Shown here piece after piece: positions 3,890 through 31,261 of a DNA stretch of 32,656 nt. The notes below the pieces were generated by a model. It ran no database searches and was not told where the DNA came from. It saw only the letters and a program-made list of their open reading frames with translations. Numbering within the stretch: position 1 is the stretch's first letter; the number at the start of each line of letters is the position of its first letter. Source of the DNA: a virus. A program made the translations under genes and the position numbers. The DNA is taken from positions 1-32,656 of the IMG/VR virus record IMGVR_UViG_3300012147_000058. The stretch is one strand, 5' to 3'.

Positions 3890-3911
3890 ACAAATAATGG
3901 ACAAATAATGG
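3890..3911 (+). repeat. Tandem 11-base repeat at a start codon
   Basis: ACAAATAATGG occurs twice head to tail (3890-3900 and 3901-3911). Each copy contains ATG. The first ATG (3897) opens a three-codon frame, M-D-K-stop, that ends just before the second ATG (3908), the start of the plus-strand gene. No clear Shine-Dalgarno site precedes either. Confidence 0.7.
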
Positions 3912-4741
3912 ACATAGCCTTTATACTATCTTCGGCACAACACCAACGAGCGTGGGGTAGCCTTATGCGAAAAGGTATAGAGGCTGTAGAAGGCTCAAAT
4001 GCTGTGTGTAAAATGTTTACTGATAATTTTGACAGTGCAAACTATGATCTTTGTATAACATGGGGCCATCGTAGAACGCACGTCTATAACCATCAGAGAA
4101 AATGTCGAAAGCCCTATCTTATTATGGAAAGGGCTTATATGGGTGATAGGTTTAAATGGACTTCACTGGGCTTTAATGGTCTAAACGGTCAAGCAACATT
4201 TAACAACTCTGATATAGTCTGTGATAAACGATGGGAAGAACACTTCAAACAGTATGTAAAGCCTTGGAGAATTAGAGAATCTTTGCCTGTACTGCTGATA
4301 GGACAAGTTCCTAACGATATGAGTCATAGGCATATCAACATTCAAGAATGGTATCTGAAGATTATAAAAGAGTGTAATGATAAAAATATTCCTGTAATAT
4401 TCCGAAAACATCCTTTAGACCGTAGTTCAACAAATTTCCTGAATCATAGCAATCTAAAGTATGAATTAGATACTTGCCCGTCACTCGAAGAGTCTTTAGA
4501 GTCTGCGCGAGCCTGTATTACATTTTCGTCTAATAGTGCGGTAGTATCTGTATTAGAAGGCATACCTACAATTACTTACGATCCTATATCAATGGTCTAT
4601 AACCATACACCACACTCTTTAGACAATCTTGATTATACCTTTGATAGAGAATCTTGGGGTATTAAAATGGCTTATACACAATGGCTTGCAGAAGAAATAG
4701 AGTCTGGACAAGCATGGAAGCATTTAAGATCATTTATTTAA
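3908..4741 (+). CDS. Glycosyltransferase-like protein (capsule-synthesis GT-B type)
   Basis: 277 residues and one of only two plus-strand genes. The C-terminal half carries IFRKHPLDRSS and CITFSSNSAVVSVLEGIPTITYD. A conserved K-H-P followed by a Ser-rich loop, then E-G-x-P, is the nucleotide-sugar site pattern of capsule polysaccharide/KDO-type GT-B transferases, where E and P contact the donor. Such proteins in phages may glycosylate DNA, proteins or host surface sugars; the target cannot be told here. No membrane segment. It starts in a tandem 11-base repeat with a poor ribosome site. Its stop codon overlaps the stop of the convergent gene within TTAA. Confidence 0.6.
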   Translation: MDIAFILSSAQHQRAWGSLMRKGIEAVEGSNAVCKMFTDNFDSANYDLCITWGHRRTHVYNHQRKCRKPYLIMERAYMGDRFKWTSLGFNGLNGQATFNNSDIVCDKRWEEHFKQYVKPWRIRESLPVLLIGQVPNDMSHRHINIQEWYLKIIKECNDKNIPVIFRKHPLDRSSTNFLNHSNLKYELDTCPSLEESLESARACITFSSNSAVVSVLEGIPTITYDPISMVYNHTPHSLDNLDYTFDRESWGIKMAYTQWLAEEIESGQAWKHLRSFI

Positions 4742-5127
4742 AATGGGATATCATTATCTTCTTCTACCCAAGGTTTTTTTTCTTGTGCGGCGTAATCGTC
4801 ATATGAAAAACCATACTTAACTTTAAGTCGTCTTTTCATATGAGTTATTTCATCGTTAAGAGTCTTCCGCACGTTCTCACACAGTTTGTTATTAATTTCC
4901 TCTATCGTAGCGGGTGCTACGTACTTATTAACAAAACCACCAATAAAAGCGGGGTGCATCTGTAAGATATATCCATCATTAGTAGTAGAGAGTTTGTTAA
5001 GATCATATTCAGCCTGTGTAATATCTTTAACAGTGCCGAAGAGTTCGTTATACATTTCAGGTGTTATTGCCAAAGACTTTTCAGCCTTGGGTGTTAGAAA
5101 CGTATCAATATCTTCTTCATTTTTCAT
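4738..5127 (-). CDS. Unknown protein with SSB-like C-terminal tail (129 aa)
   Basis: Starts MKNEEDIDTFLTPKAEK with AGGAG 8 bases upstream; the ATG shares one base with the rnh stop. The last residues are VEEDNDIPF. This acidic tail ending D-I-P-F is nearly the same as the bacterial SSB C-terminus that recruits SSB partner proteins. I see no convincing OB fold in the body, which looks helical in its second half (TIEEINNKLCENVRKTLND). Lying directly after rnh, it may be a replication accessory or an SSB mimic. In T4 the rnh neighbourhood holds dsbA, 33, 59 and 32, but I cannot match it to any of these. Confidence 0.6.
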   Translation of the reverse strand: MKNEEDIDTFLTPKAEKSLAITPEMYNELFGTVKDITQAEYDLNKLSTTNDGYILQMHPAFIGGFVNKYVAPATIEEINNKLCENVRKTLNDEITHMKRRLKVKYGFSYDDYAAQEKKPWVEEDNDIPF

Positions 5128-5981
5128 CAAAAATCTCCTACATCTTTTAAAAGCAAGCTCATTCTATTTTTAACCAAGTAATTATATACACTACCTTTAT
5201 CGCTTTGCTCAGCCTCTGTATAGGCTTTAAGAATCTTTCCTTGCAGTGAACTTGGAATCTTTTCAAAGGATATCAATTCTTCATTTCTACGATAGTTTTC
5301 TAACATTCTCTTACTCTCACAGAACATTTCTGGAGTCTCTAATTTAGACCATAAGGCAATTTCTGTTTTCTTTATAGGAGACTGTCTTTTAGTCTGAACC
5401 ACAAAAGTATCGGAGTCTGATTTAATATTTGGAATACCATCACCACCATCACCTGTAATAATCAGTTCTTTTAATTGTTGAGCAGGGTCTATACAGACTA
5501 CCATCTTTTTCTTAGCTGGTGAATACTGCCTGACATTCTTATGTTGTAACAATTGACAATAATCTTTATCTGCGCCGACAATTAGCGTAGGCTTCAATTC
5601 ATTCTTTGCAATGATTGCAATTACATCATCAGCTTCGGCTTCGGGAACTTCCACTACCTTATACGGAAAATAGTTTGTCAAGTCTTCTTTCATTTCAGAG
5701 ATTGCGCCAAAGACTTCATTCCAGTCAAAAAGAGACTTTTTATTTTTTGATTTTCTATTAGCCTTATAGTGCGGAAATATACCGTGTCTCCAATAATCAC
5801 CACGCGCATCACAGCATATCACAAGCTCGCCATATTCTTTACCGAAGAGTCTTTTATACTTTTTAAGACTGCTTAGAATCATATGTTTAACAAGTAGGGT
5901 ATCTACGTCACCCTTCTTCAAGCCCGGTGTTACCATAATATTACTTACCGCAACGTGTGACAAATCAATTAAAATTGGCAT
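5127..5981 (-). CDS. rnh: RNase H (T4 Rnh-type 5'-3' exonuclease)
   Basis: 284 residues (T4 Rnh is about 305). It belongs to the FEN1/5'-nuclease family that removes RNA primers from lagging-strand fragments. Visible motifs: acidic D6 (ILIDLS), D58 with GDYWR then YKANRK (the basic arch region), EAEADDVIA at 114-122, IVGADKDYCQL at 134-144 and ITGDGGDGIPN at 175-185. These supply the acidic residues that bind the two metal ions. The start at 5981 follows the 66-residue gene by 2 bases, and its stop overlaps the next start (TGATG). Likely partners are the phage SSB and polymerase, outside this window. Confidence 0.9.
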   Translation of the reverse strand: MPILIDLSHVAVSNIMVTPGLKKGDVDTLLVKHMILSSLKKYKRLFGKEYGELVICCDARGDYWRHGIFPHYKANRKSKNKKSLFDWNEVFGAISEMKEDLTNYFPYKVVEVPEAEADDVIAIIAKNELKPTLIVGADKDYCQLLQHKNVRQYSPAKKKMVVCIDPAQQLKELIITGDGGDGIPNIKSDSDTFVVQTKRQSPIKKTEIALWSKLETPEMFCESKRMLENYRRNEELISFEKIPSSLQGKILKAYTEAEQSDKGSVYNYLVKNRMSLLLKDVGDF

Positions 5982-5983
5982 AC

Positions 5984-6184
5984 TTATCCCTTCAGTGCGC
6001 GTACAGAATAATAATAGTCTAAAGTCTGTTCGAGATCGTTATAGCATGTTACAATGTCTGTATGCTTTAACATCTCTTCAGCCATTTTTGAAATATGTCC
6101 AGAGTCGTACTGATACTTCATAGACATTTTTTTGATAATAGTACGCATTTTATAGTCTGCGTATGACGCGACATTACTCTTCAT
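5984..6184 (-). CDS. Small helical protein of unknown function (66 aa)
   Basis: Starts MKSNVASYADYKMRTIIKK with AGGA 9 bases upstream, downstream of a strong promoter at 6215-6243 and 2 bases before rnh. The sequence is almost wholly helical and rich in K, Y and M. Position upstream of rnh in a T4-like order could suggest a small replication or late-transcription factor such as gp33 or DsbA, but there is no sequence match I can support. Confidence 0.6.
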   Translation of the reverse strand: MKSNVASYADYKMRTIIKKMSMKYQYDSGHISKMAEEMLKHTDIVTCYNDLEQTLDYYYSVRALKG

Positions 6185-7660: not shown

Positions 7661-8290
7661 TTATACTACTTTAACACTTTTTTCAGTCTTTGTCAAGCTA
7701 TTATATTCTTTTATAGCGTGAACAATGGCGTGACATGCCCATTTAAAGGAATCGTTATAGTCGTCTGTATCATAATCCCAAAAGTCTTCAAAAAGAATTG
7801 GACCATTATAAGCAGAAATATTCTCATACGCCGCATATTTTTGATAATCGGAATCTGAGTGGTTTTCAACATCGGCAAAGATTTCTTCTTCAAGACTATG
7901 TCTCAGTTCCTGCGCTTCAGACTCGGATAGTAGATTATTATTAATAAACTCGTGATAATAATTCTCTACCTCTTTTTTGAATTTATCGAAGGAAAAGGCT
8001 TTAGCTGGACTGTAGATACATTGCGCCTGAAGTTTTTGCGCCCAGTAATAATAATTAATTTTATCTAAGTCTTCGCCAAAGAATGAAAACATATCATAGA
8101 CTCTGGAGAAAGTGTACGATCCTACATCACCATTAAAGCATAGTGAATCAGACCATGTAACAATCTCATACCACATGAAATGAGTGTTCACTGCTCTAAT
8201 TCGTAAGTGTCTATTAACACCACTGTCATTTAAGACATTTAGTTTATGAGTGTTTACGTCTCTTAAAAAGTTACTCTTTGATACAGTCAT
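7661..8290 (-). CDS. Conserved phage/prophage protein of unknown function (209 aa)
   Basis: The N-terminal region HLRIRAVNTHFMWYEIVTWSDSLCFNGDVGSYTFSRVYDMFSFF matches a family common in phages and prophages (H-L-R-F..Y-W-F-x-I-V-T-W-P-G-x-L..G-D-M-G-x-x-x-F-S-R-x-x-D-M-F-x-F-F); these have no assigned function. The C-terminal half is acidic and helical. The start overlaps the preceding gene by ATGA, with GAGGAA as ribosome site. No signal peptide, so cytoplasmic. Confidence 0.72.
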   Translation of the reverse strand: MTVSKSNFLRDVNTHKLNVLNDSGVNRHLRIRAVNTHFMWYEIVTWSDSLCFNGDVGSYTFSRVYDMFSFFGEDLDKINYYYWAQKLQAQCIYSPAKAFSFDKFKKEVENYYHEFINNNLLSESEAQELRHSLEEEIFADVENHSDSDYQKYAAYENISAYNGPILFEDFWDYDTDDYNDSFKWACHAIVHAIKEYNSLTKTEKSVKVV

Positions 8291-16288: not shown

Positions 16289-16531
16289 TTACAAAAATAT
16301 TAAATACTGTTTCCTTTTTGATAAAAGAAACGTGCCATATCCTCCGTAACCGCCCGGCCCGACACCGTCGTAACCTCTATTACCAGCATATTCCAGCGCG
16401 TTGATATTTCTATCGTAACCGTAGCCTCTATTACCAGCATGTACCTGCGCGTTGATATTTCTCTCGTGATAAGATAGCCCGTAATTAGGGGGTATTAATA
16501 TTTTTATTGTATGCTGTTTATCTTTACTCAT
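16289..16531 (-). CDS. Gly/Tyr-rich small protein 7 of the MoxR-VWA operon (80 aa)
   Basis: Last of a chain of short Gly-rich frames. It contains an internal duplication: NRGYGYDRNINA and NRGYDGVGPGGYGGYG, with AGNRGY twice and (E)RNINA twice. It starts inside AGAATATGAG, where the previous gene's R-I-stop overlaps this ATG. It ends in a basic, hydrophobic tail (LLSKRKQYLIFL). No homology is recognised. Low-complexity Gly/Tyr composition suggests a disordered peptide. Confidence 0.62.
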   Translation of the reverse strand: MSKDKQHTIKILIPPNYGLSYHERNINAQVHAGNRGYGYDRNINALEYAGNRGYDGVGPGGYGGYGTFLLSKRKQYLIFL

Positions 16532-16716
16532 ATTCTATGCTTATCTGGTGCGTATCGCCTATAGCCGGACCCGAATACTTTACCTTTTCCTGAATAGTTT
16601 CCAGTGATTTGAATATATGTAGTTGATTGACCAAACAACGCGCCCGGCCAACCCCCAGCGCCCCAACCACGGTTGGTTGTAGTGGCAGTTGCACCATATC
16701 CTCCATAAGTCTTCAT
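16528..16716 (-). CDS. Gly-rich small protein 6 (62 aa)
   Basis: Begins MKTYGGYGATATTTNRGWGA, sharing the M-K-T-(E/Y)-G-G start with its neighbours, and ends KHRI-stop within the shared AGAATATGA junction. Rich in G, Y, T and W (GAGGWPGALFG). Overlaps both neighbours by 4 bases. No signal or membrane segment. Function unknown. Confidence 0.62.
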   Translation of the reverse strand: MKTYGGYGATATTTNRGWGAGGWPGALFGQSTTYIQITGNYSGKGKVFGSGYRRYAPDKHRI

Positions 16717-16868
16717 ATTCTTGCTCGCTTTTTCATATCTTCATGACCTTGCTGTCTTCCTTCGCTATGTCTTCCCGCACCGTAACAAGAGCCACGGCCT
16801 ATTCCAGCGGTTATATGAGTTTTATAAGAATAGTTCATTACTTTTGGTATCCCACCTTCAGTCTTCAT
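16713..16868 (-). CDS. Gly-rich small protein 5 (51 aa)
   Basis: Begins MKTEGGIPKVMNYSYKTHIT and continues AGIGRGSCYGAGRHSEGRQ before the ending RARI-stop. It has the same conserved ends and the same ATGA overlap on both sides as its neighbours, so it fills the gap in the chain exactly. Less Gly-rich and more basic than the others. Function unknown. Confidence 0.62.
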   Translation of the reverse strand: MKTEGGIPKVMNYSYKTHITAGIGRGSCYGAGRHSEGRQQGHEDMKKRARI

Positions 16869-17059
16869 ATTCTCTTACTCTCACAGATGTTATGGTAACG
16901 TAAGATAGACGCACATCCTAAGCCTCGATCATCGCCGTAGCCTTTGCCGCTGTAATCGGAAAAACCGACACCCATACCATTGACATAGCCATAGCCATAG
17001 CCACGACCAGTATTACATTTGTTACTTGCGTCAAGTGGGCGACCGCCTTCAGTCTTCAT
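16865..17059 (-). CDS. Gly-rich small protein 4 (64 aa), paralogue of protein 3
   Basis: Begins MKTEGGRPLDASNKCNTGRG, followed by repeated Y-G pairs (YGYGYVNGMGVGFSDY) and the C-terminal ILRYHNICESKRI. The first 20 residues and the (A/D)ILRY..HNIC segment are nearly identical to the next upstream gene (17056-17247), showing tandem duplication followed by divergence of the Gly-rich middle. Cysteines are kept at the N- and C-terminal blocks. ATGA overlaps on both sides. Confidence 0.68.
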   Translation of the reverse strand: MKTEGGRPLDASNKCNTGRGYGYGYVNGMGVGFSDYSGKGYGDDRGLGCASILRYHNICESKRI

Positions 17060-17247
17060 ATTCTCATAACTCCACAGATGTTATGGTAATAACGTAAGAT
17101 ATCCGCATATCCTGCACCATCTTGACAGCCCCAGCCAATACCGCCATAATCACTCATACCGCCGCCTATACCATCGACATATCCCACTCCACGACCAGTA
17201 TTACATTTGTTACTTGCGTCAAGCGGTTGGCCACCTTCAGTCATCAT
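17056..17247 (-). CDS. Gly-rich small protein 3 (63 aa), paralogue of protein 4
   Basis: Begins MMTEGGQPLDASNKCNTGRG, then VGYVDGIGGGMSDYGGIGWG and the ending ILRYYHNICGVMRI. Its ATG overlaps the stop of the VWA gene by ATGA, so its translation depends on the VWA gene. Two Cys in fixed blocks flank a variable Gly-rich core. This layout looks like conserved recognition ends with a changeable body. Confidence 0.68.
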   Translation of the reverse strand: MMTEGGQPLDASNKCNTGRGVGYVDGIGGGMSDYGGIGWGCQDGAGYADILRYYHNICGVMRI

Positions 17248-18293
17248 AATTTGAATACTTCACAGTTTTGTAAAGGCATATGTTTACCAATACTAATAAT
17301 AATCACTTTCTTCTTTTTATGGTGTTCTAAAAAATCAAACGAAAATTCACAGTCTGTAATAATCAACGCAACGTCTGAAGAGTCTGTAGAATGAAAACTA
17401 TTAAAAGACGTTCCACCATCTGTTTCTACTTTTTTGTAATTATCTACTGCCACGGTTGAAGTGTTAAACACATAACGACTTTGGTTATATGCAATTAAAG
17501 TATTATTCAAATCTTCCATAACTCCCAAAGCCTTTGATATATTACTACCACCCATTGATCCAGAAACATCCAAATAAATAGACAAAGACGGTTTACGGAC
17601 AATCGCCCGACTAGATGGAATCATTACGCCTGTTTGTCTAAATCTGCTCGGGCGCGTGTATGTTCTACTAAATTCTGGTTTTAAAAATCTACCTAGCACT
17701 CTGTCAATAGACTGCACAAGCGAAGACTTAGAATTAAAGGAACATCTTTCTTTTATAGCTTCTTGTTTTTTATATTCACTGTCTGTAAAAATAGACTTTA
17801 CCAGTCTTTGCAACTCTTCTGCATCGACTTCCACTATTTCACAATCTTCTGGCAGAGTGTGCGATAATTCCAGCGTAATCTGCATATCTTCTGGCGGGGC
17901 ATTCTGCATTAAGTATTCGTAAATTTCATCACTTGTCTTCAGTGTTCGCGGAACTTTAACAGTCTCGTATGTGCAACCACCATTAGGCAAGGTGTAACCA
18001 TACTGCATAACAAGATCATTAATGATAATGTCTTGCGCAATGTTTGCAATTCTATGATTATCGTGTTTTCTATTGACATGATCGAAGTATATGTGAAGAG
18101 ACTCGTGAAGAATAAGACCAACCATATGGTCTTTTTCTTTTTCGTAAAAGGAACGATTAATAAAGAATTGACCTAAGCGATTTACTCCAGCCGTTGGAAC
18201 ACGATCTGTTTCGATGATGTGACAAGCGGCAATAAAATCATAAAGTCTTGATTCTTCGGCTTCTACACAAATATTTAATAGAGTGTTTTTCAT
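17244..18293 (-). CDS. VWA-like protein with metallopeptidase-like (DUF2201-type) N-domain
   Basis: 349 residues. The N-domain has LILHESLHIYFDH, an HExxH zinc motif (H63, E64, H67). The C-terminal von Willebrand A domain keeps the metal-site (MIDAS) residues: D242-x-S-x-S in LDVSGSMGG, T295 in TDGGTSF and D314 in ITDCEFS. This two-part design is the known partner of MoxR AAA+ ATPases, which remodel or insert cofactors into targets. It has its own promoter (18320-18347) and AAAAGGAAATAT ribosome site. It lies between two groups of Gly-rich peptides and is coupled to the one that follows. Proteolytic activity is not proven: these domains may be inactive scaffolds. Confidence 0.85.
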   Translation of the reverse strand: MKNTLLNICVEAEESRLYDFIAACHIIETDRVPTAGVNRLGQFFINRSFYEKEKDHMVGLILHESLHIYFDHVNRKHDNHRIANIAQDIIINDLVMQYGYTLPNGGCTYETVKVPRTLKTSDEIYEYLMQNAPPEDMQITLELSHTLPEDCEIVEVDAEELQRLVKSIFTDSEYKKQEAIKERCSFNSKSSLVQSIDRVLGRFLKPEFSRTYTRPSRFRQTGVMIPSSRAIVRKPSLSIYLDVSGSMGGSNISKALGVMEDLNNTLIAYNQSRYVFNTSTVAVDNYKKVETDGGTSFNSFHSTDSSDVALIITDCEFSFDFLEHHKKKKVIIISIGKHMPLQNCEVFKL

Positions 18294-18319
18294 GATATAT
18301 TTCCTTTTTAATATTATTC

Positions 18320-18347
18320 ATTATAACACAGCGTAGAAAAGAGTCAA
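18320..18347 (-). promoter_or_regulatory. Strong extended -10 promoter for the VWA gene
   Basis: Minus strand TTGACT (18342-18347), 16-base spacer ending in TGT, TATAAT (18320-18325, perfect). The TGn extension strengthens it. It allows the VWA protein and peptides 3-7 to be made independently of the ATPase. Confidence 0.82.
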
Positions 18348-18545
18348 CTACATTCTTGATGATTTGCTAAGAGATCGGTAGCGTATGAGCGAATGAGGCA
18401 TGTACCATTTCCGTCTTACGCCCCGCGCCCGCGCTTTGCCGCACCCCATACCCCCCTCGTGCGCTATCCCGATTTCAGTGGCGGGCAACCCTATACCATC
18501 GCCATTACCATAGTTTTGATCTGGATATACTGTGTAAGTTTTCAT
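18348..18545 (-). CDS. Gly-rich small protein 2 (65 aa)
   Basis: Begins MKTYTVYPDQNYGNGDGIGL, continues EIGIAHEGGMGCGKARARG and ends in a basic, Ser/Arg-rich tail (LIRYRSLSKSSRM). The ATG lies in the AGAATATGA junction with the previous Gly-rich gene. The codons are GC-rich and include runs such as CGCGGGGCG, unlike the neighbouring AT-rich genes. Function unknown. Confidence 0.6.
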   Translation of the reverse strand: MKTYTVYPDQNYGNGDGIGLPATEIGIAHEGGMGCGKARARGVRRKWYMPHSLIRYRSLSKSSRM

Positions 18546-18787
18546 ATTCTTGTCGATTGGACTGCTGTTTTAATGAATTTATTACCAAAAGCCTTATACC
18601 AATCATACGGCACACTCTGAAATGCGGCTTTGCCTTGTCCAGTGCCGTTGCAACCCGAAAAAGACGTGCCGCCTCCACAGCCGCCCCCGCCGATGGCATT
18701 TGTCGTGCCGTGTCCAAATGAATCAAATCGGTGATTGTAGTAGATTACCAATTTAGGATATCCACCATATGTTATTAAGGCTTCCAC
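18542..18787 (-). CDS. Gly-rich small protein 1 (81 aa)
   Basis: A GTG start (18785-18787) lies inside the end of the MoxR gene (13-base overlap). LITYGGYPKLVIYYNHRFDSF is followed by the Gly/Cys core AIGGGGCGGGTSFSGCNGTG and the ending KTAVQSTRI. T-Y-G-G-Y-P-K and the final R-I match the other peptides. Start choice is uncertain, since no ATG is available, but coupling to MoxR is clear. Confidence 0.62.
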   Translation of the reverse strand: MEALITYGGYPKLVIYYNHRFDSFGHGTTNAIGGGGCGGGTSFSGCNGTGQGKAAFQSVPYDWYKAFGNKFIKTAVQSTRI

Positions 18788-20146: not shown

Positions 20147-20614
20147 TTAATCTCTAGGTTTTTCATAGCGTAATAATTCCTCTATTAATAATGATCTTTT
20201 CTCATCAAATACTCTTTTAGGTGTAAAGTATCTTGAAAGTATATTATCATTATAATACAACTTATTGCCAGACTTGTCAAGTGTTTCTAAAACATTTAAT
20301 TGAAATTGTAATTTAGTTTCACTAAAATTAACTTGACCCTTTGATTCGTGTAGAGACAATATCTCACGCTTGAAAGAGTCTTGTCCTATAGTCTTTATAT
20401 CTTCTAATAAAGGCTTACACGATCCGTAATAAGTCTTCCAGTCTGATTCAAGTTTTTGTCTACGCTTCTTGCCTTTGACTTTACGTACAGACCAGAAATA
20501 TTTTCTGCCTACATAAAGTTTACCAGTCTTCAGATTTGTAATAAGATATACAAACCCATAATAGTCTGATATAAGCGTTTCGTCAAATTCTTTATTATTA
20601 AATAACCACGTCAT
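20147..20614 (-). CDS. GIY-YIG-like nuclease (Seg/I-Tev-related fold)
   Basis: 155 residues. The start GFVYLITNLKTGKLYVGRKYFW carries the variant Y-x(n)-Y of GIY-YIG domains followed by the conserved arginine (GRKYF). Next come W-x-x-Y-Y-G-S (WKTYYGSCKPLLEDI) and a helix with the family glutamate (SETKLQFQLNVLE). This set occurs in many T4-like phages as stand-alone GIY-YIG-related nucleases; homing activity is not shown. The ribosome site AGGAG lies in the 3' arm of a perfect hairpin that contains a late promoter (20621-20646), so the gene is probably translated only from late transcripts. Confidence 0.72.
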   Translation of the reverse strand: MTWLFNNKEFDETLISDYYGFVYLITNLKTGKLYVGRKYFWSVRKVKGKKRRQKLESDWKTYYGSCKPLLEDIKTIGQDSFKREILSLHESKGQVNFSETKLQFQLNVLETLDKSGNKLYYNDNILSRYFTPKRVFDEKRSLLIEELLRYEKPRD

Positions 20615-22110: not shown

Positions 22111-22128
22111 ATGGTACTACCCTACCAT
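22111..22128 (-). terminator. Weak possible terminator hairpin after nrdA
   Basis: ATGGTA and TACCAT (6-base arms, 6-base loop) directly after the nrdA stop. The stem is short and no long U-run follows, so it may only be a weak stop or chance. Confidence 0.25.
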
Positions 22129-24236
22129 CACGCTTCACAAGACTTACAACCCTGTGTTTTTTGTCTGGCAAGTTGCTGTGATGCATTCATATTATACTGA
22201 TAATACAATGTCTTAACACCTAATTGCCACGCCATAAGATACAATTTGTTAATTTCTTTAGGATGCATATCAGGATCAATCATAATGTTTAAAGATTGTC
22301 CTTGATCTATGTGTGGTTGTCTAATCGCCGCCTGATTAATAATAGACTCTGGAGAAATTTCATATATAGTCTTAAATACATTTCTTTCATGCTCAGACAA
22401 GAATCCAATATGCTGAACCGAACCGTCTGCATCTCTAATAGAATCCCAAGTATTTCTATTGTCTTGATTATATTTCTGTAAAACTTTCTTTAGATACTTA
22501 TTCTTAACGGTTGTCTCACTCTTCGCAAGACTCTTTACATAATAGTTAGAAAACTCTGGTTCGATTCCCATAGAGACTTGTTCTAGGATCGCCGAAGAAC
22601 TCTTTGTGGGGGCGACTGCCGTTAGTGTTGTATTTCGTCTCCCGTATCCTGCCAGCACCTCAGGCTCGCCCCACCATTCTGCCATATCGCGTGAAGCTGT
22701 CCATGCGCGTTCGTTAATAGTCTCAAACAATTCTTTATTAATGTCTGAAGCCTCTTCAGACTCAAACGCAATTGATTTAGACTGTAAATATGAGTGCCAG
22801 CCTAGTACACCCAAACCCAAGGCGCGGTGATTCTTCGCAAATTTTAGTACACGCTTCATAAAGTATTGGACTTCTGGAGTCATTTGTTCGACTTTATCAA
22901 TAAACTCTGTAACAACCGTGTCAAGGAATATAGTCATAGTCTCTACAGCGTCTGTATTTTTCCAATCATCGTAATACAAAGCATTCATAGACGATAAGAC
23001 ACATACAAAAGACTCGTCTTTGTTTGACGGTAAGGCAATCTCGGAACAATTATGCACCAGTATATTATTAGCGTAAAAGTTATGATTATCCTTAACAGTA
23101 ATATCATAGACTGGTGTAGGCTGTACGCTAAGTTTTACTATTTTATAAGCGCGTTGGAAACTTGAAGAGTCTGAAGAAAGGAGAGTATCGTCTAGTAACA
23201 ATTCATCTGCACGAACATAGCCCCTATTTCCAGTGAATATTTTGTGGTTTCCAGTACACTCTAATAGTTTATCATAAGCACTATAAATCTGAAACAACTC
23301 TTCCACTACATCAGTTTTAGCTGAGACTTCAACCTCTTTCCATTCCGATTTTTCAGTCTCTGTATTATACGAAAGTGTGTAAATAGGCTGAGTAAATAAT
23401 TGAAGATTGAAGAAAAGGTCGAATAAGTCAATATCCATTTCAAACTCAGAGTCCAGATATTTCAACTTCAGTGTAGTGTCGCCTTTAACACACATATTCG
23501 ATGCATAGATTTTCATATTCTTATTTTTATACACATCCACCGTATTGTTATTTACATTGTCTGTGAAGAATACGTAAGGATACCCAGCCTCGGTGCGATT
23601 TTGAATAACCTTAGCCCATCTACGTCTATTCTCGGTATTACCATCAATCATATCATTTAAGAATGTATCTGTAACTGTCACACCATTTGTTAGAGTCTGA
23701 ATAGCATGTCCGTCACTACCAAAGCCTACAAATTCATCGAAGTCACCGTGTTCAATAGGCAAATATGGTGTAAAGAATCCTCTACGAACTGAGCCTTGTG
23801 ATACAATGTCTGTAAGCTTATCAAACAGTTCCATAAAATGCACAGCCCCAAAAGACTTTCCATAATCTTTGATATCCGCGCCGCGCTGTCTTAATTCTCC
23901 GATATAGCCTGAACAGCCCCCGCCAAACTTACTAAGCATACCAACTTCTGAAACAGTATATAGAATAGAGTCCATAGAGTCTCCAATCCATGAACCAAAA
24001 CAGGAAACAGGCAAGCCACGATCTGTAGCATAATTGGACCATACGGGTGAAGATAATGAATACCAGCCTTTACTCATATAAGAATAAAACTTATCGGCAA
24101 AGCCTTTAATACCAGTTAAGACTTCGGCATGGTCTGCAATAATACGAACCCTCTCTTCAACCGTCAAGCCATCGGGAAGATATCCCCTACTTAAAAATTG
24201 GCGAGTCTCTTCGTTAGCCCATTTGAACTTTGTCAT
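22128..24236 (-). CDS. nrdA: Ribonucleotide reductase class I large subunit, interrupted by an intein
   Basis: 702 codons, leaving 554 residues after splicing. It reduces ribonucleotides to deoxyribonucleotides with NrdB. Landmarks: redox C79 (LPVSCFGS), the active-site N-x-C-x-E formed only after splicing (N247, C397, E399), redox partner C412 (VCVLSSMN), radical-transfer pair Y678-Y679 (KTLYYQYN) and the C-terminal C697-x-x-C700 that passes electrons from glutaredoxin. No N-terminal ATP cone is present; that domain is on NrdB instead. The gene follows nrdB by 14 bases. The intein is annotated separately. Confidence 0.93.
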   Translation of the reverse strand: MTKFKWANEETRQFLSRGYLPDGLTVEERVRIIADHAEVLTGIKGFADKFYSYMSKGWYSLSSPVWSNYATDRGLPVSCFGSWIGDSMDSILYTVSEVGMLSKFGGGCSGYIGELRQRGADIKDYGKSFGAVHFMELFDKLTDIVSQGSVRRGFFTPYLPIEHGDFDEFVGFGSDGHAIQTLTNGVTVTDTFLNDMIDGNTENRRRWAKVIQNRTEAGYPYVFFTDNVNNNTVDVYKNKNMKIYASNMCVKGDTTLKLKYLDSEFEMDIDLFDLFFNLQLFTQPIYTLSYNTETEKSEWKEVEVSAKTDVVEELFQIYSAYDKLLECTGNHKIFTGNRGYVRADELLLDDTLLSSDSSSFQRAYKIVKLSVQPTPVYDITVKDNHNFYANNILVHNCSEIALPSNKDESFVCVLSSMNALYYDDWKNTDAVETMTIFLDTVVTEFIDKVEQMTPEVQYFMKRVLKFAKNHRALGLGVLGWHSYLQSKSIAFESEEASDINKELFETINERAWTASRDMAEWWGEPEVLAGYGRRNTTLTAVAPTKSSSAILEQVSMGIEPEFSNYYVKSLAKSETTVKNKYLKKVLQKYNQDNRNTWDSIRDADGSVQHIGFLSEHERNVFKTIYEISPESIINQAAIRQPHIDQGQSLNIMIDPDMHPKEINKLYLMAWQLGVKTLYYQYNMNASQQLARQKTQGCKSCEA
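23049..23492 (-). other. Mini-intein within NrdA (148 aa)
   Basis: Residues 249-396. It starts with Cys (CVKGDTTLKLKYL, block A), has block B T-x-x-H (CTGNHKIFTGN, H331), block F VYDITVKDNHNFYANN and block G ILVHN, followed by C397 as the first extein residue. All residues for Cys1, penultimate His, terminal Asn and Cys+1 splicing are present. At 148 residues there is no room for a LAGLIDADG homing endonuclease, so this is a splicing-only mini-intein. It splits the N-M/C-S-E active-site motif exactly before the catalytic cysteine. Confidence 0.92.
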
Positions 24237-30098: not shown

Positions 30099-30127
30099 AC
30101 TATAGCAAGAATTATAGGCTATGTCAA
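30099..30127 (-). promoter_or_regulatory. Sigma70-like promoter
   Basis: Minus strand TTGACA (30122-30127), 17-base spacer, TATAGT (30099-30104, 5 of 6). It overlaps the last codons of the upstream gene and gives a leader of about 16 bases. Confidence 0.8.
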
Positions 30128-31261
30128 TAGGTTATTTAATGTTTCTTGTAGAATTTCTTCAGATAATTGCATAAGACTATCAACAATCTCATCTTCTGTA
30201 GACTCTTCCAGAGATTCTCTTACACCTTGCGCGAATAGTTTACGACTCATTGCGAGTTCGTGTTCACTCGCACCAGTGTCTCTAGTGGCTGTATATATCT
30301 TATGCGCTAAGGCTTTTTTCTTATACACACCTTTTGAGAAAATCTGAATTTCAGCGGTAATGCCATCATAATCTAAGTCAATATGATACGCACCCTGATA
30401 TCCTGCGCGGTTATTACCACCAGTGGTCTTTTTCTCAAACGAAAGGATATTTGAACGCATCTTTCTTTGAATATCTTTAGCTACACTTTCGGCATCTTCC
30501 GAACTCTGTGTAATAATCATACCGCCAATAAGATCAGGCGCATCGGCTAAAGACTTGCCGCGTTTGACAACCTTTGAAATGACAGAATCAAGGGGCTTTA
30601 CGCGAGTCTTGATATCAGTGTTTTTATATTTCTTAGATAGTTTTTGCAGTGTATTTTTTAATTCCCTATCACGTTTATTAAGATCAGGCAACACCGCTTT
30701 ATATATACTCTTTATAGCCTCTTCCTCAGACTTACTATCTAATCTATTTGAAGCTTTATTCTTTACGTAGTCTATTACATCTTTGTTTTTTCTCAATAGA
30801 CTATTGACAACTCTTTCTGTAATCAATACAGACTCACTATAGTATTTGACATCGGGGAAGGTGCGAAGTTTCTCTAAAGCCTGTTTAATATTCAGATCAA
30901 TGATAATGGCTTTGATAGACTGGTCTTTAATTCTTGCGCCTAATACACGATGATGACCATCTAAAACATATCCGTCTTTAGTTGTAAGAACGGGTCTGGA
31001 GTCTTTATTGCCTTTATCGACAACAATCTTAACAGTATCGGCGTTTAGATTCTTCTGTGTAGCCTTCAAAGACTTTGCAGGAATGTCTTTTACGGTGGTT
31101 TTAATCTTCTCAGTCTTTAACCATTTTTTAAAGTCTTCGAAGTATGCCGATTTAATTTGCGGCATATCCCGTCTACTGATATTGATGTTAGTCTTTGTAA
31201 AGGCTTTAATCTCAGCCTCTACAGTTTTCTCTTCGTTTATATATTCGATAAAGCTTTTCAT
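30119..31261 (-). CDS. ParB-like plus RelA/SpoT-like two-domain protein, candidate injected head protein
   Basis: 380 residues. The N-terminus MKSFIEYINEE closely resembles the T4 capsid-targeting sequence MKTYQEFI-x-E, with I-N-E as a possible prohead-protease site. Residues about 55-125 are ParB-like (PVLTTKDGYVLDGHHRVLGA; the D-G-H-H-R is typical of ParB/sulfiredoxin-fold nucleases or NTPases). Residues about 215-325 follow the RelA/SpoT synthetase pattern: IKTRVKPLDSVISKVVKR, PDLIGGMII, GYQGAYHIDL and AEIQIFSK, then H320. It is the only gene here with a late box 6 bases before its ATG, and has no Shine-Dalgarno site. Enzyme activity and packaging are inferred. Confidence 0.72.
   Translation of the reverse strand: MKSFIEYINEEKTVEAEIKAFTKTNINISRRDMPQIKSAYFEDFKKWLKTEKIKTTVKDIPAKSLKATQKNLNADTVKIVVDKGNKDSRPVLTTKDGYVLDGHHRVLGARIKDQSIKAIIIDLNIKQALEKLRTFPDVKYYSESVLITERVVNSLLRKNKDVIDYVKNKASNRLDSKSEEEAIKSIYKAVLPDLNKRDRELKNTLQKLSKKYKNTDIKTRVKPLDSVISKVVKRGKSLADAPDLIGGMIITQSSEDAESVAKDIQRKMRSNILSFEKKTTGGNNRAGYQGAYHIDLDYDGITAEIQIFSKGVYKKKALAHKIYTATRDTGASEHELAMSRKLFAQGVRESLEESTEDEIVDSLMQLSEEILQETLNNLLT

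Follow-up and report, generated by a model that had tools for sequence, protein, structure and literature searches.

A small orphan phage protein encoded directly after rnh carries a C-terminal tail similar to that of bacterial SSB

Gene P0001 and its neighbours

The window, i.e., the whole stretch of DNA that was analysed, is a 32,656-base IMG/VR virus record with T4-type genes. These include rnh, a gp61-type primase, ribonucleotide reductase subunits, thymidylate synthase and dCMP deaminase. Gene P0001 is on the minus strand, with its coding sequence at positions 4741–5127 and its stop codon at 4738–4740. Translation of this reading frame (4738–5127 in the ORF list) gives a protein of 129 aa with the C terminus ...EKKPWVEEDNDIPF-stop, i.e., VEEDNDIPF. 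The codons for EEDNDIPF, a tail similar to the C-terminal tip of bacterial SSB (SSB-Ct), are at positions 4741–4764 (minus strand).

P0001 is immediately downstream of rnh (positions 5127–5981, minus strand), which encodes a T4-type RNase H / 5'-3' flap exonuclease. The rnh product matches the Pfam families 5_3_exonuc_N (E = 1.2e-17) and RNaseH_C (E = 1.1e-9) and a PHROG exonuclease (E = 2.2e-45). The rnh stop codon and the P0001 ATG have one base in common (TGATG), which bears out the statement of an earlier note on this DNA that P0001 directly follows rnh. A Shine-Dalgarno-like GGAG can be read at positions 5135–5138 (minus strand), with the ATG 7 bases on. With the TGATG overlap and the GGAG at this spacing, P0001 is convincing as a translated gene, as opposed to a chance ORF, and the two genes are probably translationally coupled, judging from this arrangement of signals. 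The longest ORF starts with a TTG at position 5130, which is a less likely start than the ATG at 5127.

A 66-aa ORF (positions 5984–6184, minus strand) is located upstream of rnh in the same gene run. Its product has no accepted relative in Pfam or PHROGs, and on comparison it is unrelated to the small genes that precede rnh in Vibrio phage 2.058 and in four cyanophages. On the other side of P0001 is a convergent gene of 277 aa (positions 3908–4741, plus strand) with no confident family in Pfam or PHROGs. Its stop codon overlaps that of P0001 by 4 bases, and the leftward run of genes thus ends with P0001.

The rnh product is at best ~42% identical to those of named phages (cyanophage S-WAM1, by tblastn) and 45% identical to those of the 80 IMG/VR loci kept. 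Identities of at most ~42–45% indicate that the window represents an isolated lineage within the collections searched. Single-protein scans with the rnh product and with a 344-aa neighbour returned no relatives.

Several other minus-strand genes of the window were noted. The large subunit of ribonucleotide reductase (positions 22128–24236) contains a small intein, apparently without an endonuclease, that matches Pfam Intein_splicing (E = 3.7e-12). A SegE-type GIY-YIG homing endonuclease is encoded at positions 20147–20614 (Pfam, E = 5.8e-48). Small glycine-rich ORFs are clustered at positions 16289–18787, and two of these, at 16865–17059 and 17056–17247, begin alike (GGxPLDASNKCNTGRG) and appear to have arisen by tandem duplication.

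Properties of the C-terminal tail

The C-terminal tip of bacterial SSB is DDDIPF in E. coli. The earlier note had described an SSB-like tail on P0001, and comparison of VEEDNDIPF with DDDIPF confirms the description: P0001 ends in acidic residues and IPF, and its body is not recognisable as that of an SSB. The window has a single occurrence of DNA for DIPF-stop (GAYATHCCNTTYTAR), which coincides with the end of P0001; none of 100 dinucleotide shuffles has one. From the amino acid composition, 0.00025 DIPF endings are expected among the 46 minus-strand genes, and ~1.6e-5 endings of the form [DE][ILV]PF with at least three of the four preceding residues acidic. The tail is not a chance ending for this window. 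In an AlphaFold2 single-sequence model, residues 116–125 and 127–129 have pLDDT values below 50, and the tail is predicted to be unstructured.

The protein body

The body had been called unrelated-looking, and the searches agree with this. It has no accepted match in Pfam, PHROGs, NCBIfam or PDB sequences, and no homologue was found in INPHARED (tblastn to E = 10), in IMG/VR (single-sequence scan) or in GTDB contigs. At relaxed thresholds, none was accepted in 100 whole records, of which the first 50 consist of 37 of the 80 IMG/VR rnh loci and 13 phage records, and the second 50 of 49 out of a set of 80 loci and one phage. The failure to find a homologue, by which the tail of P0001 itself could be shown to be under selection, is the main weakness of the interpretation given below.

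Several weak matches were set aside. One (E = 0.002, 30% identity) is inside a 559-aa frame of a Campylobacter phage, and another (E = 2.5e-4, 25%) falls within a frame of 299 aa whose sequence shows it to be a different protein. A match within the window (positions 30869–31105, E = 4e-4, 29%) is inside a 380-aa protein with a RelA/SpoT-like domain (positions 30119–31261, minus strand; Pfam E = 7.6e-8), possibly a phage-encoded enzyme of the (p)ppGpp type. A match to the NCBIfam AcrIIA4 family (E = 0.064) is far below the family cutoff. The family phrog_12518 matches P0001 with E = 0.027, or 5.9e-4 for the window alone, and is a weak lead; it matched none of the 14 phage records also searched. 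A T4 DsbA profile does not match P0001, but it is a poor profile that apparently mixes two unrelated families, with members mostly annotated as 'transcriptional regulator' or hypothetical.

The earlier note offered two possibilities, a divergent phage SSB or a mimic of the SSB tail that captures host SSB partners. The second is probably the better reading of the sequence, and the first finds no support in the searches, which gave no SSB or OB-fold match in Pfam, PHROGs, NCBIfam or PDB. When a gp32 profile was run on the ORFs of the window, P0001 was not reported and only weak matches to other ORFs appeared (E of 0.22–3.5), so that the window has no gp32 detectable by this search for comparison. 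Prediction of the body with AlphaFold2 without an alignment gives an all-helical model (helices at residues 23–48, 53–57, 59–69, 75–105 and 109–115). With a pLDDT of 55.8 this low-confidence model is a weak test of the fold and counts weakly against an OB fold.

The C termini of T4-like gp32 proteins are mostly acidic, with other sequences. None of 12 complete proteins ends in PF (two that were truncated at contig ends were excluded). The absence of the tail from T4-like gp32 indicates that the peptide copied is that of the bacterial SSB.

Genes found after rnh in other phages

In T4 and Aeromonas phage 25 the gene order after rnh is dsbA-33-59-32; in T4 a homing endonuclease gene is located between 59 and 32. 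Six Kyanoviridae records (S-WAM1, Melnitz, S-PM2, HTVC008M, S-H38 and S-CREM1) have a protein of 143–153 aa encoded directly after rnh, which is named "T4-like GC 313" in the S-PM2 record. Of the 80 IMG/VR rnh loci, 73 have a relative of GC 313, and none of these 73 proteins ends in PF. P0001 shows no similarity to the GC 313 profile (-0.9 bits by hmmsearch and a probability of 0.3% by hhalign). P0001 thus occupies a place where other phages of the group carry a different gene.

Two other small proteins were noted for their ends. One is a frame of 122 aa located upstream of rnh in a T4-like phage of IMG/VR (L024, positions 5557–5925), which ends EEDSPEVPF and has no Pfam match. An 85-aa hypothetical protein of the Melnitz phage (L004, positions 7730–7987) has the end ANDKIPF.

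Distribution of the tail among viral proteins

A scan of IMG/VR for DNA that encodes DNDIPF-stop found at least 119 viral stretches, versus one for the permuted control DNDPIF-stop, which has equal degeneracy and length. One reading frame was extracted per stretch, and the at least 119 frames were clustered. A length of 40 aa or more is found in 110 frames, 65 of them non-redundant at 90%; the nine shorter frames represent contig ends or doubtful frames. A 13-aa frame, KKRY(T/N)TTDNDIPF, was seen in four stretches (L197, L198, L205 and L212).

The largest groups among the matches listed are AEP-TOTE-type primases (17, 7 non-redundant), Toprim/DnaB primase-helicases (16, 5 non-redundant), small phage ssDNA-binding proteins (15, 6 non-redundant), AAA ATPases (9, 8 non-redundant) and classical SSBs (8, all non-redundant). 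These are followed by Pam3 gp34-like proteins (7), phrog_862 (6), phrog_37570 (5), BT4734-like proteins (3, 2 non-redundant) and smaller groups. The family names rest on tested representatives and singletons and not on each protein; one SSB found in the AAA cluster (L143) was counted as an SSB. The SSB families together account for 28 of the at least 119 proteins, and judging from the cluster representatives, most of the bodies that bear DNDIPF among the matches listed are not SSBs. A narrower scan for [DE][DE]DNDIPF-stop gave six stretches in all, encoding a Pam3 gp34-like protein, three BT4734-like proteins, an AEP primase and a 90-aa orphan, and none is P0001-like.

Similar ends are present on replication proteins of named phages. 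The three primase-helicases fetched share 31–37% identity with the query and have the ends NKEIPF, EDEVPF and DDFPF. None of three AEP primases fetched from named phages, relatives of the tail-bearing ones, ends in IPF. The end is SEF in two of them and GSPF in the third, and this speaks against a tail rule that holds universally.

A further example is the gp45-type sliding clamp of Vibrio phages, identified by a match to PDB 1b77 over residues 1–224 (E = 6.6e-13). The clamp gene of Vibrio phage 2.058 (L015, positions 5019–5726) is directly after an rnh-type gene, the place of P0001 in the window, and has counterparts in henriette 12B8 (L315) and V6Aob (L314). The clamps of 2.058 and henriette 12B8 end DEDIPF and that of V6Aob, 75% identical overall, ends DDSIPF. 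T4 gp45 ends STHDF and is without the short C-terminal extension of the Vibrio clamps. The gp32 proteins of 2.058 and V6Aob end ANIPV and ANLSI, respectively.

Interpretation of the tail

The tail of P0001 is most likely a borrowed docking tag on a protein that is not a true SSB, a reading suggested by the presence of the same ending on many unrelated phage replication proteins. SSB-Ct is described in the literature as a transferable docking signal, some nine residues in length, to which SSB-interacting proteins such as RecO bind. P0001 may be a small phage-specific adaptor, itself not an SSB, whose tail plugs into the pocket with which enzymes of the host, or of host type, bind SSB, in the vicinity of the phage RNase H; for this more specific proposal the chances appear about evenly balanced. 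The body, which is probably helical, would perform phage-specific work or hold a phage partner, possibly the co-translated RNase H. The disordered acidic EEDNDIPF would represent a graft of the bacterial SSB tip, and its terminal Pro-Phe would enter the pocket for SSB on SSB-interacting enzymes of the host or of host type. The enzyme would then either be brought to phage DNA ends or flaps, or be kept off SSB-coated DNA. Pocket binding, the identity of the partner and the choice between recruitment and inhibition are points that we infer from the sequence.

A tail that is real but serves a phage partner is an unlikely alternative that still carries some weight. P0001 would in that case act within the phage replisome, where its SSB-like tip would be used, for example, by the RNase H of the phage or by a phage helicase or polymerase in which an SSB-Ct pocket has been kept or has evolved. 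The coupling of the gene to rnh is compatible with this, as are the tails on phage clamps and primase-helicases, the binding of T7 gp5 by the acidic C-terminal tail of gp4 as given in an excerpt of one report (PMC12593628), and the requirement of the phage protein Sak4 for the phage SSB tip NDYPPF as given in an excerpt of another (PMC5928155). However, with IPF on none of the 12 T4-like gp32 proteins there is no evident reason for phage enzymes of this group to own such a pocket, and the window offers no gp32 for comparison. The ending could also be neutral or due to chance, with NDIPF having come about by accident at the short acidic C terminus of an unrelated phage protein. The lack of a homologue, which prevents a demonstration that the tail is conserved, and the fact that the feature was singled out by a reader from many both favour this, but the very low expectation for DIPF endings, the shuffles without a single DIPF-stop and the excess over the permuted control of at least 119 to 1 make it quite improbable.

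That P0001 is a divergent phage SSB with an OB fold is less credible still. The tip itself and the share of DNDIPF proteins assigned to SSB families by cluster and representative speak for it, against which stand the absence of an SSB or OB match by sequence, the silence of the gp32 profile and the helical, though low-confidence, model. A late-transcription or clamp-binding protein similar to gp33, with its C terminus on the sliding clamp, is hardly to be expected. T4 and Aeromonas phage 25 have the gp33 gene two genes after rnh. At its C terminus gp33 has a short hydrophobic motif that is also found at the end of T4 polymerase and that we take to be the clamp-binding motif. But these ends are of the LDFL type (LDFLL in T4 gp33, LDFLFG in T4 gp43 and LDFLM in phage-25 gp33) versus NDIPF in P0001, and P0001 is absent from the full match list of a cyanophage gp33 query (P0008).

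The preferred reading, a borrowed docking tag, can be extended to phages in general. Phages may repeatedly graft the host SSB tip onto replication proteins other than SSB, such as primase-helicases, primases, AAA ATPases, sliding clamps and small adaptors, so that a phage protein that perhaps does not coat ssDNA at all could address every host enzyme with an SSB-Ct pocket. P0001 would be the minimal case, an orphan adaptor made together with a flap nuclease and consisting of nothing but a body and the docking code of the host. This generalisation is tentative, and we hold it with less than even confidence. In bacteria, the SSB tip serves as the address by which numerous enzymes of replication and repair are brought together on ssDNA, and a phage with this tip on non-SSB proteins could recruit or block the whole enzyme set by a few residues. 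The survey suggests that such tails are common, and they can be found simply by the protein end. The idea is directly testable in named phages, e.g., Flavobacterium elemoA, Cellulophaga phi10:1 and Vibrio henriette 12B8.

Comparison with known systems

That phage SSBs can have SSB-Ct and acidic tails is known already. In the literature searched, which included few subscription journals, no paper was found that describes primase-helicases, clamps or orphan adaptors of phages with an SSB-Ct tip, the T7 tails apart. P0001 resembles bacterial SSB, as represented by the E. coli tip, in its NDIPF, its acidic and probably disordered end and its terminal Pro-Phe. It differs in the short linker before the tip and in its 129-aa orphan body, in which no OB fold was detected. 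GC 313 of the Kyanoviridae is comparable to P0001 in gene position only.

Another parallel is the clamp of Vibrio phages 2.058, henriette 12B8 and V6Aob. Like P0001 it is a non-SSB protein encoded right after an rnh-type gene and has a similar tip, but its body is a sliding clamp, which the P0001 body is not. The SSB of HK620 has an SSB-Ct-like tip, NDYPPF, that is required for a partner protein according to the excerpted report (PMC5928155), but this tip is on a genuine SSB. In T7, as far as excerpts of two reports describe it, an acidic tail is present on both the SSB, gp2.5, and a non-SSB replisome protein, gp4 (PMC5686142, PMC12593628), and the C-terminal tail of gp4 holds T7 polymerase (PMC12593628). 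The partner of the T7 tails in these excerpts is the phage polymerase, whereas the tail of P0001 copies the bacterial SSB peptide.
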